Positions 1 to 27,497 of a stretch of DNA of 28,006 nt are shown here, piece after piece. Under the pieces are notes generated by a model. That model had not been told where the DNA came from. It ran no database searches and worked only from the letters and a program-made list of their open reading frames with translations. This stretch comes from a virus. Both the position numbers and the translations under genes were made by a program. The stretch is taken from the IMG/VR virus record IMGVR_UViG_3300010151_000106, positions 1-28,006 of that record, one strand, 5' to 3'. The stretch's first letter is position 1. Each line of letters starts with the position of its first letter.

Positions 1-1
1 A

Positions 2-136
2 GAAGAAGAACCAGAAGAAGAACCAGAAGAAGAAACTCCTGAAGAAGAACCTGAAGAAGAACCTGAAGAAGAACCAGAAGAAGAAACTCCTGAAGAAGAA
101 CCAGAAGAAGAAACTCCTGCTGAAGAAGAAACTCCA
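2..136 (+). repeat. In-frame acidic tandem repeat (EEEP/EEETP units)
   Basis: Imperfect 12-15 base units of GAAGAAGAA followed by CCA, CCT or ACTCCT run from the window edge to about 136. They read in frame as Glu-Glu-Glu-Pro and Glu-Glu-Glu-Thr-Pro. The frame joins the downstream scaffold-like protein without a stop. The repeat starts outside the window, so its full copy number is unknown. Slipped-strand mispairing could change that number. Confidence 0.9.
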
Positions 137-982
137 AAATATGAAGCCAATCTAAAGTACAAGGCCATGAAAGAAGAGTATGATCTTCCAGATTACCTTG
201 CTGCTGTTATTGACTCTCCAGAAAAAGAAGAAGAAATTAAAAAGATTTACTCAAAAGCTATGGGTATGGATCACTTCGCTGCCAAGAATGAACACATGAG
301 AAAGCAGCTAGATGATGTTGCTCCAGTTATGCAGGATGTTCAGCACTTTAATAAAATGTTAGATGATAAAAATTACCACGCTGCTTTCAAATTAGCAGGT
401 GTTGATGATGATTCTATTTTAAAGCTTGCAGGTAACATTCTTGAAATTAGAGATTTGACACCAGAACAGCAAACTGCTTATAATAATAACATTCAGTCTA
501 ACCAGAGACTACATCAATTGGAAGCCGATAACCAACGACTCCAACAACAATTTACAAATTCACAGGAAAGTAAACAGCTCCAAGAGTTGGATACTCAAAT
601 AGTAAGCGGAGATACGGCCAATATTTCTACGAACTATGACCAGAGAATGGGTAAAGCAGGTGCTTTTAGAGAGGCAGTAATTAATAATGCTGCAATGATT
701 GAGTTCCAAACAAAAGATAATCCTAATGGGCCTACTATCTTGACACCCCAAGAAGCTGTAGCAAGTTTTATCAAAGCGTCTGGGATCACTCCTCAACAAG
801 TCACTGAGCAAGTTGGTGATGCAGGTCAACCTAAACAAACTGTCGTAAAACCAACGGTAATAGTTAAGAAAGATAAACCTACCATCCCAAGAATTAAATC
901 AGGAAATAAAAATCCTGTTAAAAAGAAGGTAAAAACTTTGGCAGACTTGCAAAAGCTTGCTGATGGTTTAGATGACTATTAA
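2..982 (+). CDS. Scaffold-like capsid assembly protein (5' end outside window)
   Basis: The frame is open from base 2, so the gene begins upstream of the window; the ATG at 167 is probably internal. The first 45 visible residues are acidic Glu/Pro repeats. A charged helical region follows, then a Gln/Asn-rich predicted coiled coil near the middle. The C-terminus is Lys-rich and ends with a short amphipathic helix. This composition, and its position directly before the probable major capsid gene with a 19-base gap, fits an internal head scaffolding protein, whose basic C-terminus usually contacts coat protein. No protease motif is visible in this part. The family is inferred from composition and context, not from a clear signature; a minor head protein is the alternative. 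Confidence 0.6.
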   Translation, partial: EEEPEEEPEEETPEEEPEEEPEEEPEEETPEEEPEEETPAEEETPKYEANLKYKAMKEEYDLPDYLAAVIDSPEKEEEIKKIYSKAMGMDHFAAKNEHMRKQLDDVAPVMQDVQHFNKMLDDKNYHAAFKLAGVDDDSILKLAGNILEIRDLTPEQQTAYNNNIQSNQRLHQLEADNQRLQQQFTNSQESKQLQELDTQIVSGDTANISTNYDQRMGKAGAFREAVINNAAMIEFQTKDNPNGPTILTPQEAVASFIKASGITPQQVTEQVGDAGQPKQTVVKPTVIVKKDKPTIPRIKSGNKNPVKKKVKTLADLQKLADGLDDY

Positions 983-14858: not shown

Positions 14859-15572
14859 ATGAAATATTGGACGTATTTAGAAATTCGAACAAAAGTACGA
14901 AAAGACCTCGGAATTGAGCAAGAGGATTTTATTACTGCTGATGAACTTAAGGGCTATTGTAATATGGCCATTGATGATGCAGAAAGTGAAATCCATTCTA
15001 TCTATGAGGATTATTTTCTTACGGATACTCCTATGGCTACAGTGGCTGATCAAGCCTCTTATGAGATGCCTGATGATATTTACGCAAATAAGATTAGAGC
15101 GTTAATTTATACTTTAGGGTCGGAAGTTTATCCGATAACTAGATTCGCTAATATGGCCAATCTATTTGAAGCAATTGAAGCAGATAAACTAAGTACATCT
15201 TCAGTATATAGATATCACCTTACAAATAGATCAGCAGTATCTGGGGTAAAAATTCAACTTACTCCAGTTCCAAGAATAAGCGCAGCTAATATGATTCTAT
15301 ATTACATTAGGAACGCTAATAGAATGGAAGATGATACTTCTCTTTGTGATATCCCTGAATTTGTGGATTATGTAATACAGTTCATGAAAGTACGTTGCTA
15401 TGAGAAAGAAGGACATCCTACTTTATCAACTGCAATAGGTATGCTTGAATATAAAAAGAAAAATATGATAAACACCTTATCAAACATGGTACCCGATGAT
15501 GATAATATCTTGGATCAAGATACTTCATTCTACTGGGATATGGGTGGTAACTTAGAAGTTAATCAGTATTAG
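14859..15572 (+). CDS. Head-tail adaptor candidate
   Basis: 237 residues. The N-terminus (Y-W-T-Y-L-E-I-R-T-K-V ... D-F-I-T-A-D-E-L-K-G-Y-C-N-M-A-I-D-D-A-E-S-E-I) is a helical bundle with the T-x-x-E-L-x-x-x-x-N-x-A-x-x-x-x-x-x-x-I pattern of portal-bound adaptors. It is followed by T-P-M-A-T-V-A-D-Q-A-S-Y-E-M-P-D-D-I, a beta hairpin also typical of these proteins. Later comes a second helix pair. Adaptors join the portal to the nozzle, and the gene lies between nozzle-like and ejection-like genes. The final 25 residues are acidic and flexible. The fold is inferred from the pattern. Confidence 0.55.
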   Translation: MKYWTYLEIRTKVRKDLGIEQEDFITADELKGYCNMAIDDAESEIHSIYEDYFLTDTPMATVADQASYEMPDDIYANKIRALIYTLGSEVYPITRFANMANLFEAIEADKLSTSSVYRYHLTNRSAVSGVKIQLTPVPRISAANMILYYIRNANRMEDDTSLCDIPEFVDYVIQFMKVRCYEKEGHPTLSTAIGMLEYKKKNMINTLSNMVPDDDNILDQDTSFYWDMGGNLEVNQY

Positions 15573-15580
15573 GAGTAGAT

Positions 15581-16690
15581 ATGAGTTGGGGAAATGGAAA
15601 TAATGAGTATGATGCTCAACAAAGAGAGCGTCAGCGACAAGCCCAAATAGCTGCTCAAGCTAAGGCTCGGGCAAAAGAGATGTACGAGAGACAAATGAGA
15701 GACCGACAAGGTAGACTTGTTGAGGCCGATGGTGGATATTCTGCAATTGGTGGAGGTATAAATAGATACGGCCAAGCCCGCCCTGATTACTTAACCAATA
15801 GAGATATGGATGGTGGTCTAAATGAAAGATTTGAATCCTCAATGGGTGAGTCTTACTCAGCTCTTCGTGATAAAGCAATGGCTGAAGGTGACTCAGTTGG
15901 TGCAGGTCTCCAAAGGGAACAAGCAGGAAATGCTTATAGGTTTGGTATGGGGCAAAATGCTCAACAACAAGCAGGTCAACTTGCTCAAGCCAGAAGTAAT
16001 ATGGCCATGAGAGGAGGTTCTAGTACTGGATCTCGAGAAAGACTTGCTGCCCAAGGTATGAACAATTCAATGCTTGCTCAACAAGGCCTAGGTAGAAACC
16101 TAGCCAATCAAAACCTACAGATTTCTATGAATGATGAGCAAATGAAAAACCAAGCTCTGACTAGTCTGGGTGGTGTTGAACAAAACATACAAAATCAAAA
16201 TATCGACAGGCTTCAAAGTGGGATTGATAATCAAAATATATTCTCTCAGAGTATGTATGGTGAAGATATGTCGGCCTATGCAGCTATGAAGTCAGCAAAG
16301 GCTTCCAAACCTTCTTCGTGCTTTGTTGCTGATACTTTATTCCTAATGGAAGATGGTACAGAGAAAGCAATTGCAGATATAAAATTAAGTGATGTAATGG
16401 ATAAAGGTGGAGTTGTTTCATTTATATCTCACTCTGTCGCTGATGATCTTTACAATTATAAAGGTGTTTTAGTGACTGGTAATCATGCAGTTAAAGAGGA
16501 CTCTAAATTTATAAGAGTAAAGGATTCTATGGAAGCTGTTAAGGTTGAAGGTAACTTTATAGTGTACTGTTTAGGTAATGAAAACCACCTAATGGTTAGT
16601 AGGTGTGCTTTGTTCTCTGATTTCTTTGAGCATGACCAAAACCTAGACTTGGAAGAGTCACTAGAGATACTTAATGAAACACTGGATTAG
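15581..16690 (+). CDS. Virion/ejection-like protein with C-terminal Hint domain
   Basis: 369 residues; SD AGGAG. Residues 1-240 are rich in Gln, Asn, Gly, Ala and Met with helical N-terminal repeats (Q-R-E-R-Q-R-Q-A-Q-I-A-A-Q-A-K-A-R), like internal or ejection proteins. Cys247 begins a Hint domain: C-F-V-A-D-T-L-F-L-M-E-D-G-T-E-K-A-I, then I-K-L-S-D, and T299-G-N-H302 (block B). A block F-like segment (F-I-V-Y-C-L-G-N-E-N-H) follows near 333. The C-terminus lacks the His-Asn and following Cys/Ser/Thr of splicing inteins, so N-terminal cleavage at Cys247 is more likely than splicing. The stop overlaps the next gene by 17 bases. The Hint call is strong; the virion role is inferred from context. 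Confidence 0.7.
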   Translation: MSWGNGNNEYDAQQRERQRQAQIAAQAKARAKEMYERQMRDRQGRLVEADGGYSAIGGGINRYGQARPDYLTNRDMDGGLNERFESSMGESYSALRDKAMAEGDSVGAGLQREQAGNAYRFGMGQNAQQQAGQLAQARSNMAMRGGSSTGSRERLAAQGMNNSMLAQQGLGRNLANQNLQISMNDEQMKNQALTSLGGVEQNIQNQNIDRLQSGIDNQNIFSQSMYGEDMSAYAAMKSAKASKPSSCFVADTLFLMEDGTEKAIADIKLSDVMDKGGVVSFISHSVADDLYNYKGVLVTGNHAVKEDSKFIRVKDSMEAVKVEGNFIVYCLGNENHLMVSRCALFSDFFEHDQNLDLEESLEILNETLD

Positions 16691-17015
16691 TTATTTAGAA
16701 AATGAAGAAGGTAAGGAAGTAATCTACCATGATTACGGCCTTATCGCTTATAAGGTAATAGGTACTGAATTAATGATTACCGATTTCTTCATTGACCCAG
16801 AGACCAGAAGCAAGGGCCTAGCTCTTACACTTTCCCAAGAGGCTGAGAAGTTTGCAAGAAGGCAAAAGTGTGTAGTTATGTCGTGCAATGTTTACATTAA
16901 CGAAAAAAATAAAGGGATGTTCCCTAGAAAGATTGCTTTGTTTACGGAATTTGGTTTTGAAGTTCTAGAGGCAAATAATAATATTATTACAATGATTAAG
17001 AGACTAGGAGAATAG
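16674..17015 (+). CDS. GNAT-family acetyltransferase candidate
   Basis: 113 residues. F-F-I-D-P-E-T-R45-S-K-G48-L-A50-L-T-L is motif A of GNAT enzymes (R/Q-x-x-G-x-G/A), preceded by the usual beta strand (E-L-M-I-T-D-F) and followed by a helix. The end (F-T-E-F-G-F-E-V) matches the GNAT F-Y-x-x-x-G-F motif. It is shorter than most full GNATs, and the final Gly of motif A is Ala. Its start lies 17 bases inside the Hint protein gene, so the two are translationally linked. The substrate is unknown; acetylating a virion protein, a host protein or a small molecule are all possible. Confidence 0.6.
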   Translation: MKHWISYLENEEGKEVIYHDYGLIAYKVIGTELMITDFFIDPETRSKGLALTLSQEAEKFARRQKCVVMSCNVYINEKNKGMFPRKIALFTEFGFEVLEANNNIITMIKRLGE

Positions 17016-22304: not shown

Positions 22305-22568
22305 TTAAGAAATAAGTCCTTGGATATATTCTATATGTACCAGTTTGTAGTTCTTACCATCCAAATCTACATCCACACCGATGTCTTCGCACATCACTTT
22401 ATCACCAATCTTCAACTGAGAATTAATCGATTCGTCCTCTGGAAGAGCTACAACTGTCGCATATCTCTGATCTAGACTTTCAACTTCTGCAGGTATTATG
22501 ATTCCACCTTGCATAGATTCTTGTGCTACTGATAATAGGATTCTTTGACCCATAGGTTTAAAATTCAT
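22305..22568 (-). CDS. groES-like: GroES-like co-chaperonin (Cpn10)
   Basis: 87 residues from the ATG at 22568, preceded by AGGAGT. The sequence has the Cpn10 layout: F-K-P-M-G-Q-R-I-L-L, then Q-G-G-I-I-I-P-A-E (the mobile-loop end and beta strand), A-T-V-V-A-L-P, L-K-I-G-D-K-V-M, D-G-K-N-Y-K-L-V and the C-terminal Y-I-Q-G-L-I. GroES caps GroEL and helps fold proteins; phage T4 gp31 and similar proteins replace host GroES to fold the coat protein. The reading frame continues upstream into an HNH remnant without a stop, so a 174-residue fused product from the ATG at 22829 is also possible. The SD and family length favour 22568. Confidence 0.88.
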   Translation of the reverse strand: MNFKPMGQRILLSVAQESMQGGIIIPAEVESLDQRYATVVALPEDESINSQLKIGDKVMCEDIGVDVDLDGKNYKLVHIEYIQGLIS

Positions 22569-22874
22569 TTTAATACTCCTAGTTGCTGTGAAGATGGCTC
22601 GCTCTGTAGACCACCCTTTGTTTAATCGTCTTCGCATCGTTGTGTGGTTAACACCTGTATATTCTACCCATTGAGACATAGTTAATGTTCTACCTCTACA
22701 AGTAAGTAAGGTATTATTTCTTTTATTCCTGCCCTGAATTAACCTAGATACCCATCTACAGTTATCGGGATTGTAACCCTCATTATTATTAATTCTATCG
22801 AGAGTCATACCATCTTTAGGTTCTCCCATGTCGTCGAGGAATTGTTTAAATGTAAACCACTCAGGGCATACTTT
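22569..22874 (-). pseudogene. 5'-truncated HNH homing endonuclease, fused in frame to groES
   Basis: The frame is open from 22874, just after a TAA, and runs into groES with no stop. It reads V-C-P-E-W-F-T-F, then M-T-L-D-R-I-N-N-N-E-G-Y-N-P-D-N-C-R-W, the core of phage HNH endonucleases. Next comes the typical DNA-binding tail (G-R-T-L-T-M-S-Q-W-V-E-Y-T-G-V ... R-R-R-L-N-K-G-W-S). The upstream half of the family, including G-G-R-G-I, is missing. The only ATG (22829) lacks an SD. It is probably an inactive relic. Its last codons supply the AGGAGT SD that groES now uses. Confidence 0.75.
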
Positions 22875-24209: not shown

Positions 24210-24936
24210 CTACCATCTTCTTAATTTCTTTAGAGAATGAAGTAGAAATATTACCTGAAGCAGTAAATAAAGTTTTACCTTCCATTGCTTTAGATATCAT
24301 TATTACGTGTTGTTTCATCTTACCTGAAGCGTCTTTTCTCCACCCTGCATAAAGATTATCAATTACTCTTGCAAATTCTTTTTTGTGAGCAATGTCTTCT
24401 CTGTTGTAAGGAATACCTTTAGCTTTAGGTTTCTTTACTTCTTCTTTTTTGACTTCGACTTCTTCTTTAACGGCTTGCTCTGATTGAACACTTCCTTCAT
24501 CGTTGGTTGCTTTTGCTTCAGCTGCTCCAGTTTCTTTTGCAGGTTCTGCCTGTTCTTCTCTTGCATCTGACTTAACTTCTGATTTTGGCTCATCTTTACG
24601 TCCCTCTAATTCTTTTAATTTCTTAGCTGCTTTATCAACTTTTGCAGGTCTTTTTAACTTTGGATCTGAAGGAACAGTATCTTTTTCTGTGAGAACAACT
24701 TCTCCAGTTTCTTGAGTCTGGGCAATAACTGCTGCCAGTTTCTCTTTAATCGGTGATTTAAAAGGTACGTCAAGGTGTGCGTGAACGATTTCCATAAGGT
24801 TTAGAATAGAGACATCTCTATTTTCGTTCTCACCAAGAGTTGCCTCTAGTCTAAGCGTTTCATTAGAGTAAGTCCCTAGTGATGCTTTCTCTTCTTTTGT
24901 AATTTTCTTTTCGAATACTATTGAATTTATACGCAT
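24199..24936 (-). CDS. Unknown two-domain DNA-metabolism protein
   Basis: 245 residues from the ATG at 24936, SD AGGAG (24943-24947) inside the HNH gene. Residues 1-75 form a small domain (M-R-I-N-S-I-V-F-E-K-K, then T-L-R-L-E-A-T-L-G-E-N) similar in style to N-terminal domains of unassigned phage replication-region proteins. A disordered linker rich in Glu, Lys and Ala spans about 85-175. The C-terminal 70 residues form a second folded domain (G-I-P-Y-N-R-E-D-I and K-Q-H-V-I-M-I-S-K-A-M-E-G-K). I do not know the family. Position between nuclease and helicase genes suggests a recombination mediator or ssDNA partner role. Confidence 0.6.
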   Translation of the reverse strand: MRINSIVFEKKITKEEKASLGTYSNETLRLEATLGENENRDVSILNLMEIVHAHLDVPFKSPIKEKLAAVIAQTQETGEVVLTEKDTVPSDPKLKRPAKVDKAAKKLKELEGRKDEPKSEVKSDAREEQAEPAKETGAAEAKATNDEGSVQSEQAVKEEVEVKKEEVKKPKAKGIPYNREDIAHKKEFARVIDNLYAGWRKDASGKMKQHVIMISKAMEGKTLFTASGNISTSFSKEIKKMVDAL

Positions 24937-25478
24937 TTTTTTCTCCTAATTTCATGTTTAGCTATTTCTTCTAAGCTTAAATTTTTACTTTTTAATCTGT
25001 GTGCAGTCCTTAAAGAAATTTTACAATAATTCTTAACAAAACTCTTAAAAGTCATTTCTAAACCACAGAAAACTATGGTCTTTGGTTTAAGGTTTGTGAT
25101 TTCTTCCAGACTCATACCTTTTCCCATATTACTCTTTACACAACCAAAACTTACTCTGGTGTGTCTCTCTGTAAACTGGGATAGGCACATCTCTTCACCC
25201 TTAAAGAGGACAAATATAGTAGTACTCCTATTTATGCAGTTGTTGCTTATAGTAGACCACCTTAAATTACCTCTTTCATAGTGACCATCGTTATCTATCC
25301 TATCTATTTGGACTTCATCTCCCTTCCTAGGTAAGGATTTAATGTAGTTATCGTAATTATTAAATGACGAAAATTCCTTAGACACCATTATCCCCCTACC
25401 TCCGTACCTATGGTACTTGTGGTAGTTTGGGTTATTACACCTAGTTAGCATACTTGCCCATCTAGAAAAATTACCCAC
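24927..25478 (-). CDS. HNH homing endonuclease (intact)
   Basis: 183 residues with a GTG start at 25478 that overlaps the nuclease stop by one base. The N-terminus has R-W-A-S-M-L-T-R-C-N-N-P-N-Y-H-K-Y, then Y-G-G-R-G-I, and the metal-binding core I-D-R-I-D-N-D-G-H-Y-E-R-G-N-L-R-W. Two related C-terminal DNA-binding modules follow (F-K-G-E-E-M-C-L-S-Q-F and F-C-G-L-E-M-T-F-K-S-F). Free-standing HNH enzymes of this kind copy themselves between phage genomes by cutting uninfected alleles. It overlaps the next gene by 10 bases, and its last codons hold that gene's SD. No intron or intein is seen. Confidence 0.85.
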   Translation of the reverse strand: MGNFSRWASMLTRCNNPNYHKYHRYGGRGIMVSKEFSSFNNYDNYIKSLPRKGDEVQIDRIDNDGHYERGNLRWSTISNNCINRSTTIFVLFKGEEMCLSQFTERHTRVSFGCVKSNMGKGMSLEEITNLKPKTIVFCGLEMTFKSFVKNYCKISLRTAHRLKSKNLSLEEIAKHEIRRKKCV

Positions 25479-27223: not shown

Positions 27224-27397
27224 ACCTTTTGTAATTAAGAAGTCTTTTAATATATATTTCTCATTTCTTCATTTTTTGCCGATAGCTCATGATAAGCATT
27301 GATAGCAATCGCCAATGGCTCGTCTATCACCTTAATTGGTGTAATCGTTATTCCCTTACTCCTCTCTACCTCTTTCAGTATTAATAGTTCTATTAGA
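27224..27397 (-). other. Region without a convincing gene
   Basis: A frame is open on the minus strand from the tRNA end to a stop at 27247, reading I-K-V-I-D-E-P-L-A-I-A-I-N-A-Y-H-E-L. It has a good AGGAG but no ATG; GTG and TTG codons lie inside without SD. It may be a decayed or truncated gene. Nothing else is seen here. Confidence 0.35.
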
Positions 27398-27481
27398 TGA
27401 CGGTGGTGGGACTCGAACCCACGACCTTCTTGCTACTTTTTACGATAACCCGTATACTCTATCCTGCTGAGCTACACCGTC
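27398..27481 (-). tRNA. tRNA-like gene, anticodon unresolved
   Basis: The 7-base acceptor stem is perfect (GACGGTG/CACCGTC), the D-arm is good (GCTC/GAGT with AGG in the loop), and the T-arm is perfect (GTGGG-TTCGAGT-CCCAC). The discriminator is A; no CCA is encoded. The gene is 83 bases without the discriminator, about 10 longer than a normal class I tRNA. The anticodon arm does not fold normally. A 4-base TACG/CGTA stem would give a 6-base loop; a GTTAT/GTAGC stem would give an 8-base loop and misplaced flanks. No long variable stem is visible. It may be a decayed tRNA, or one with an insertion. Confidence 0.7.
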
Positions 27482-27497
27482 AGAATTTAAACTACTG

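Follow-up and report, generated by a model that had tools for sequence, protein, structure and literature searches.

An unannotated, C-terminal Hint domain family in phages is linked to genes for putative modifying enzymes

The window analyzed here, an IMG/VR virus record of 28,006 bases, encodes a protein whose C-terminal 123 residues are likely, judging from conservation and structural modeling, to form an active, self-processing Hint domain that belongs to a new phage family, with a GNAT enzyme acting on the same substrate. The family is unannotated and always C-terminal, and its domain is borne by several unrelated N-terminal proteins. Fold, family membership, conservation of the catalytic residues, C-terminal position, an Asp at the place of the terminal Asn of inteins, and linkage to GNAT genes were all computed directly.

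The gene for the Hint-bearing protein stands directly downstream of an SU10-type adaptor gene and runs into a GNAT gene (Table 1). The overlapping GNAT gene, which an earlier note on this sequence did not mention, is the most informative neighbor. That note had called the protein virion-type, a reading that rests on synteny and fits the gene order. The N-terminal 246 residues are probably an internal or ejection-type virion protein and have syntenic homologs in L006 (32% over 102 aa), L298, L301, and L316. The note had also placed a Hint domain at the end of the protein, and the family profile and structural model described below bear this out. Its landmarks, Cys247 with CFVADT...MEDGTEKAI and T299-G-N-H302, are present as it described them. 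The domain end that it gave, 16660, needs correction, as the domain extends to the stop (16687) and consists of the core plus a tail of about 20–22 residues.

Table 1. Coordinates of the Hint-bearing gene, its parts, and its neighbors in the window
Feature	Position	Strand	Basis or remark
SU10-type adaptor (context gene)	14859..15572	+	Pfam SU10_adaptor 9.4e-13
ORF for Hint-bearing protein	15581-16690	+	369 aa
N-terminal 246 residues, Gln/Gly/Ala-rich (predicted N-extein)	15581..16318	+	ORF reading, synteny, homologs
Predicted scissile junction, Ser246-Cys247	16316..16321	+	Cys in 52/52 rows; intein residue 1 in structural alignment
Hint core, residues 247-347 (about 247-348)	16319..16621	+	AF2 model, structure matches, family profile
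C247 codon	16319-16321	+	First residue of domain; CFVADT motif
Block B, T299-G-N-H302 (TxxH)	16475..16486	+	His in 51/52 rows; S/T at 299 in 47/52
S346-D347-F348, where inteins have penultimate His, terminal Asn, and +1 nucleophile	16616..16624	+	Asp in 50/52 rows; structural alignment
C-terminal tail, residues 348-369, with predicted helix ~357-367	16622..16687	+	AF2 secondary structure
GNAT-fold acetyltransferase gene	16674..17015	+	Acetyltransf_1 1.5e-5; overlaps Hint gene by 17 nt

Searches with the family and with a structural model were used to identify the fold. The window sequence alone matched Pfam Hom_end_hint weakly and under the cut-off (E 0.0067), its domain matched an N. equitans intein weakly over block B (0.06), and a search of NCBIfam gave no match. 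All 31 aligned family members matched Hom_end_hint (best 6.8e-7), 14 matched the Hedgehog Hint model, and nine matched Vint. When the 31-row family profile was compared with the PDB, all 16 rows returned were intein or Hint chains (best 3.1e-6, PI-SceI). An AF2 model of the domain (pLDDT 92.6, pTM 0.86) aligned with Hint structures (Foldseek/VIA) at Z 11–15 over ~100 residues with an rmsd of 1.6–3.1. The top solved match was 6y75_B, the BIL2 domain of Tetrahymena BUBL1 (Z 14.8, rmsd 1.7, 108 residues), and further solved matches included PI-SceI, a C. thermocellum BIL, MchDnaB-1, and Hedgehog 1at0 (Z 12.5). Annotated Hint proteins are found among predicted viral structures, as are unnamed ones that are up to 33% identical. 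The domain has the fold of the Hint superfamily together with its N-terminal nucleophile and block B TxxH, and it is confirmed, beyond chance, that residues 247–369 form a Hint domain.

When the structures are aligned, model residue 8 (C247) pairs with intein residue 1, and model residue 108 (D347) pairs with the last intein residue (6rix 1..145, 2in8 1..440, and 1dfa 1..454). Residue 145 of 6y75 faces model residue 110, so its Asn143 faces D347. By this alignment, S346, D347, and F348 stand where inteins have the penultimate His, the terminal Asn, and the +1 nucleophile, respectively.

A DNA-pattern scan of IMG/VR for Hint block A yielded at least 80 loci, among which L052/L059, L062, and L084 align across the whole domain at 38–39% identity. 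A subsequent profile scan gave about 66 loci of one family. Conservation was counted over 52 distinct family rows: C247, T252, D258, Y293, and E306 occur in all 52, H302 in 51, F345 and D347 in 50 each, and Ser or Thr at 299 in 47. The locus-finding patterns drew on block A only, and H302, Y293, E306, and D347 were therefore not selected for. The C-terminal His-Asn-nucleophile, the absence of which the earlier note had pointed out in the window, is replaced family-wide by [T/S/A/G]-Asp-[Y/F], and its absence is not the decay of one copy. In all complete members the domain closes the protein, leaving 5–55 residues after D347, and the median dN/dS among close pairs (0.16) indicates purifying selection. 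The N-terminal parts form about 11 similarity groups with no connection between them, and many of these parts end in a Gly-rich linker or a second Hint, one of the His-Asn type. The window sits on a long branch of the Hint tree, which makes its placement there unsure. Neither the full protein nor the window domain had an IMG/VR match by single-protein patterns, and neither had a relative among 50,697 phage records searched at E 1e-3 or better; consensus-like domain queries gave no match in phages either. A scan of bacterial genomes returned short matches only, mostly to block A, so the family looks viral at that sensitivity.

The product of the window GNAT gene scores 25.7 bits against Acetyltransf_1 (cut-off 20.7) and has by eye an R-x-x-G-x-A acyl-CoA loop (RSKGLA), which together give it the domain and the R/Q-x-x-G-x-G/A loop of a GNAT. 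A search of 50,697 phage records (E 1e-3 or better) found no relative of it, and related genes (GNAT-B) adjoin Hint genes in L170/L309, L298, L299, L301, L302, L313, and L317. At most family loci the Hint gene runs past the start of the following gene, in many cases by 8–11 nt, and the product of that second gene is GNAT-like, an Asp/Asn hydroxylase (Asp_Arg_Hydrox 1.9e-10), or a SET protein (1.5e-9). After Hint sequences were collapsed at 80% identity into 43 distinct lineages, an adjacent GNAT was present in 29 (three with an added Asp hydroxylase), SET was present in two, and no enzyme was recognized in 12, so the enzyme is not strictly required. L316 was entered as having none in this tally; its downstream gene is GNAT-like by eye, and Pfam and PHROGs give no support for that assignment.

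The commonest neighbor, GNAT-A, belongs to a different branch from the GNAT of the window, and 14 of 17 GNAT-A neighbors match phrog_17252, a PHROG of unknown function. A GNAT-A model (pLDDT 92.6) matches GNAT acetyltransferases in the PDB. Its chemistry is uncertain because the usual R/Q-x-x-G-x-G/A acyl-CoA loop is absent by eye. Where a hydroxylase occurs, it is followed by a dehydrogenase-like gene (SDR) and then GNAT-A. The complete order of Hint protein, Asp/Asn hydroxylase, dehydrogenase-like protein, and GNAT-A was seen in L120, L126, L128, L131, L135, L143, and L152, and this operon looks like a stepwise side-chain tailoring pathway. In a reverse scan by GNAT-A sequence, seeded like the GNAT models with Hint-adjacent GNATs and leaving very distant GNAT-A relatives uncounted, a Hint gene lies upstream in all 77 loci that have upstream sequence (best 80 of 169). 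The Hint gene immediately precedes the GNAT-A gene in 43 of these, and in the other 34 the hydroxylase-SDR pair lies in between. Three distant GNAT-A relatives in public or cultured phage records have a neighboring structural gene without a Hint domain.

Four phages share the gene order of the window, with a 9375-type protein, an adaptor, and a homolog of the N-terminal part, and provide a natural comparison. The order after the adaptor is Hint protein then GNAT-B in L301, and GNAT-B then Hint protein in L298, so the side of the Hint gene on which GNAT-B lies differs between the two. L316 has a Hint protein with an unassigned neighbor. L006 has the homolog without a Hint domain, and no GNAT was found in its incomplete record. 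The enzyme goes with the Hint domain rather than with the N-terminal protein, and the absence in L006 is suggestive of the same. Chance adjacency of the GNAT genes was judged unlikely from the reverse scan and from the comparison of L006, L298, and L301.

In known Hint domains, Cys1 and the block B His produce a thioester, and those without Asn and a C-extein are unable to complete splicing and undergo N-terminal cleavage or transfer (PMC7765530, PMC7664689); BIL2 hands its N-terminal protein to a lysine in an isopeptide bond (PMC8616854). By this chemistry, Cys247, aided by T299 and H302, would attack the S246–C247 peptide bond (N-to-S acyl shift) and form a thioester. Because the Asn-cyclization and C-extein steps are missing, the thioester would be left to water or an external amine, and D347 probably helps the incoming nucleophile. 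The 246-residue virion protein would be freed or joined to another molecule, while the Hint domain and tail would come off. The translationally coupled GNAT would most likely modify the virion protein (or the Hint domain) before or during release; where other phages encode an Asp hydroxylase, a dehydrogenase-like protein, and a GNAT, or a SET methyltransferase, these may act on the same substrate, with the Hint domain as the common portable element of the cassette. The proposal in the earlier note that cleavage or transfer is likelier than splicing follows from the same chemistry, and cleavage or transfer at S246/C247 appears to be the best reading.

The linkage suggests that a Hint and modifying-enzyme cassette matures or conjugates diverse virion proteins. 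A broader version can be put forward only tentatively: a widespread tailoring and ligation cassette in which the Asp-ended Hint would activate virion C-termini as a thioester, a GNAT, hydroxylase-SDR-GNAT, or SET would prepare or modify the substrate or acceptor, and modified or cross-linked virion proteins would be made without ATP.

It is possible, and somewhat unlikely, that the domain is a simple self-removing tag. The thioester would then merely be hydrolyzed, the Hint domain would be a temporary aid to folding, solubility, or the timing of assembly, and the GNAT would be a separate tail-module gene traveling along. Hydrolysis is the default fate of such a thioester where there is no second nucleophile (PMC7765530), and some lineages have no enzyme neighbor. 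The reverse linkage (77/77, best 80 of 169) and the finding that the enzyme gene may precede or follow the Hint gene argue against this reading, and conservation of D347 (50/52), Y293, and E306 (52/52 each) suggests more than hydrolysis.

We are doubtful that the thioester is passed to an amine as protein conjugation, with a virion Lys, cell-wall peptide, lipid, or polyamine as acceptor. Hedgehog, which transfers its N-terminal protein to cholesterol, and BIL2, which transfers to lysine, are models for this outcome. The nearest fold is that of BIL2 (Z 14.8), a maker of isopeptide bonds (PMC8616854), the C-terminal layout without His-Asn is as in Hedgehog, and all complete members have a C-terminal tail after the core. 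Against this, no acceptor is known and no region resembling sterol recognition was identified. That the domain is catalytically dead and serves as a structural or docking element, such as a binding platform for the GNAT, is improbable: it would account for the linkage to enzymes, but Cys (52/52), His (51/52), and S/T (47/52) are too strictly kept. An ordinary intein or split-intein half that splices would share the Hint fold, but this reading is extremely improbable and was rejected, as the C-extein, His-Asn, and +1 nucleophile are missing in the window and across the family. The preferred reading remains an autoprocessing Hint domain with a GNAT acting on the same substrate.

Other features of the window were also recorded. 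An HNH-endonuclease-like stretch (by eye) at 22305-22829 (-) is in frame with a phage GroES/Cpn10 (Cpn10 6.7e-10, residues 89–172), possibly a homing-endonuclease remnant fused ahead of the co-chaperonin gene. A second HNH-like ORF (by eye) at 24927-25478 (-) is beside a PDDEXK nuclease gene, and a tRNA-like match at 27396-27482 (-) has no clear anticodon. The scaffold-like ORF that precedes the capsid gene opens with a long acidic EEEPEEETP repeat (2-150).

Viral proteins with Hint domains are already known; what we rate as new is the genetic system around the present family. A literature search of incomplete coverage found no paper describing such a cassette of Hint domain and modifying enzyme. 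The value of Hint domains lies in their ability to form or cleave peptide bonds unaided, and the phage family would offer new C-terminal activating domains, in phage particles, with a distinct C-terminal signature. Its genetic link to acetyltransferases, hydroxylases, and methyltransferases suggests that virion proteins are tailored post-translationally, a subject that has been little studied, and gives phrog_17252 a function-bearing context. This PHROG is a known group with no function listed, and the GNAT fold and Hint linkage were computed in the present analysis.

Hint-enzyme coupling may be a wider theme beyond the Asp-ended family. Three tandem C-terminal His-Asn-type Hints precede a SET gene in L061 (2193-3545) and similarly in L009, L101, L112, and L116. 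A His-Asn-type Hint ends Gly-rich phage proteins in L018, L044, L048, and L105, where a GNAT starts between 1 nt before and 21 nt after the stop, and proteins ending in a His-Asn-type Hint are followed by a 2OG-Fe(II) oxygenase gene in L042, L065, and L104.

Several known systems are similar to the phage family in part. Phage inteins, such as that of phiCbK TerL (PMC3556154), also place the Hint fold in a phage protein, but these lie inside conserved enzymes and splicing is predicted for them, whereas the new family is terminal on variable virion proteins. The ending S346-D347-F348 with a stop after residue 369, and its equivalent across the family, differs from that of a class 1 intein. BIL2 of the Tetrahymena BUBL1 polyubiquitin-like locus (6y75, 6tmm) resembles the window domain in fold, Cys1, and block B His, but it ends in Asn143 and lies between domains, whereas the phage domain has Asp for Asn and is C-terminal on virion-type proteins. 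The Hog domain of Hedgehog (1at0, Z 12.5) is likewise C-terminal without His-Asn and uses the N-to-S shift alone. The phage domain differs from Hog in its short tail of another kind (22 residues after the core) and its linkage to a GNAT, and the protein has no Hedge domain, no identified sterol-recognition region, and an N-terminal part encoded beside an SU10-type adaptor. Bacterial BIL domains of types A and B likewise occur in variable proteins as Hint domains that cleave themselves, and those of type B have no C-terminal intein motif. The phage family does not have the conserved His-Asn end of A-type BILs, and in motif pattern, the level at which the two were compared, it agrees with B-type BILs. 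It is distinguished from BILs by its defined [TSAG]-Asp-[YF] C-terminal signature, its strictly terminal position, and its operon with modifying enzymes.
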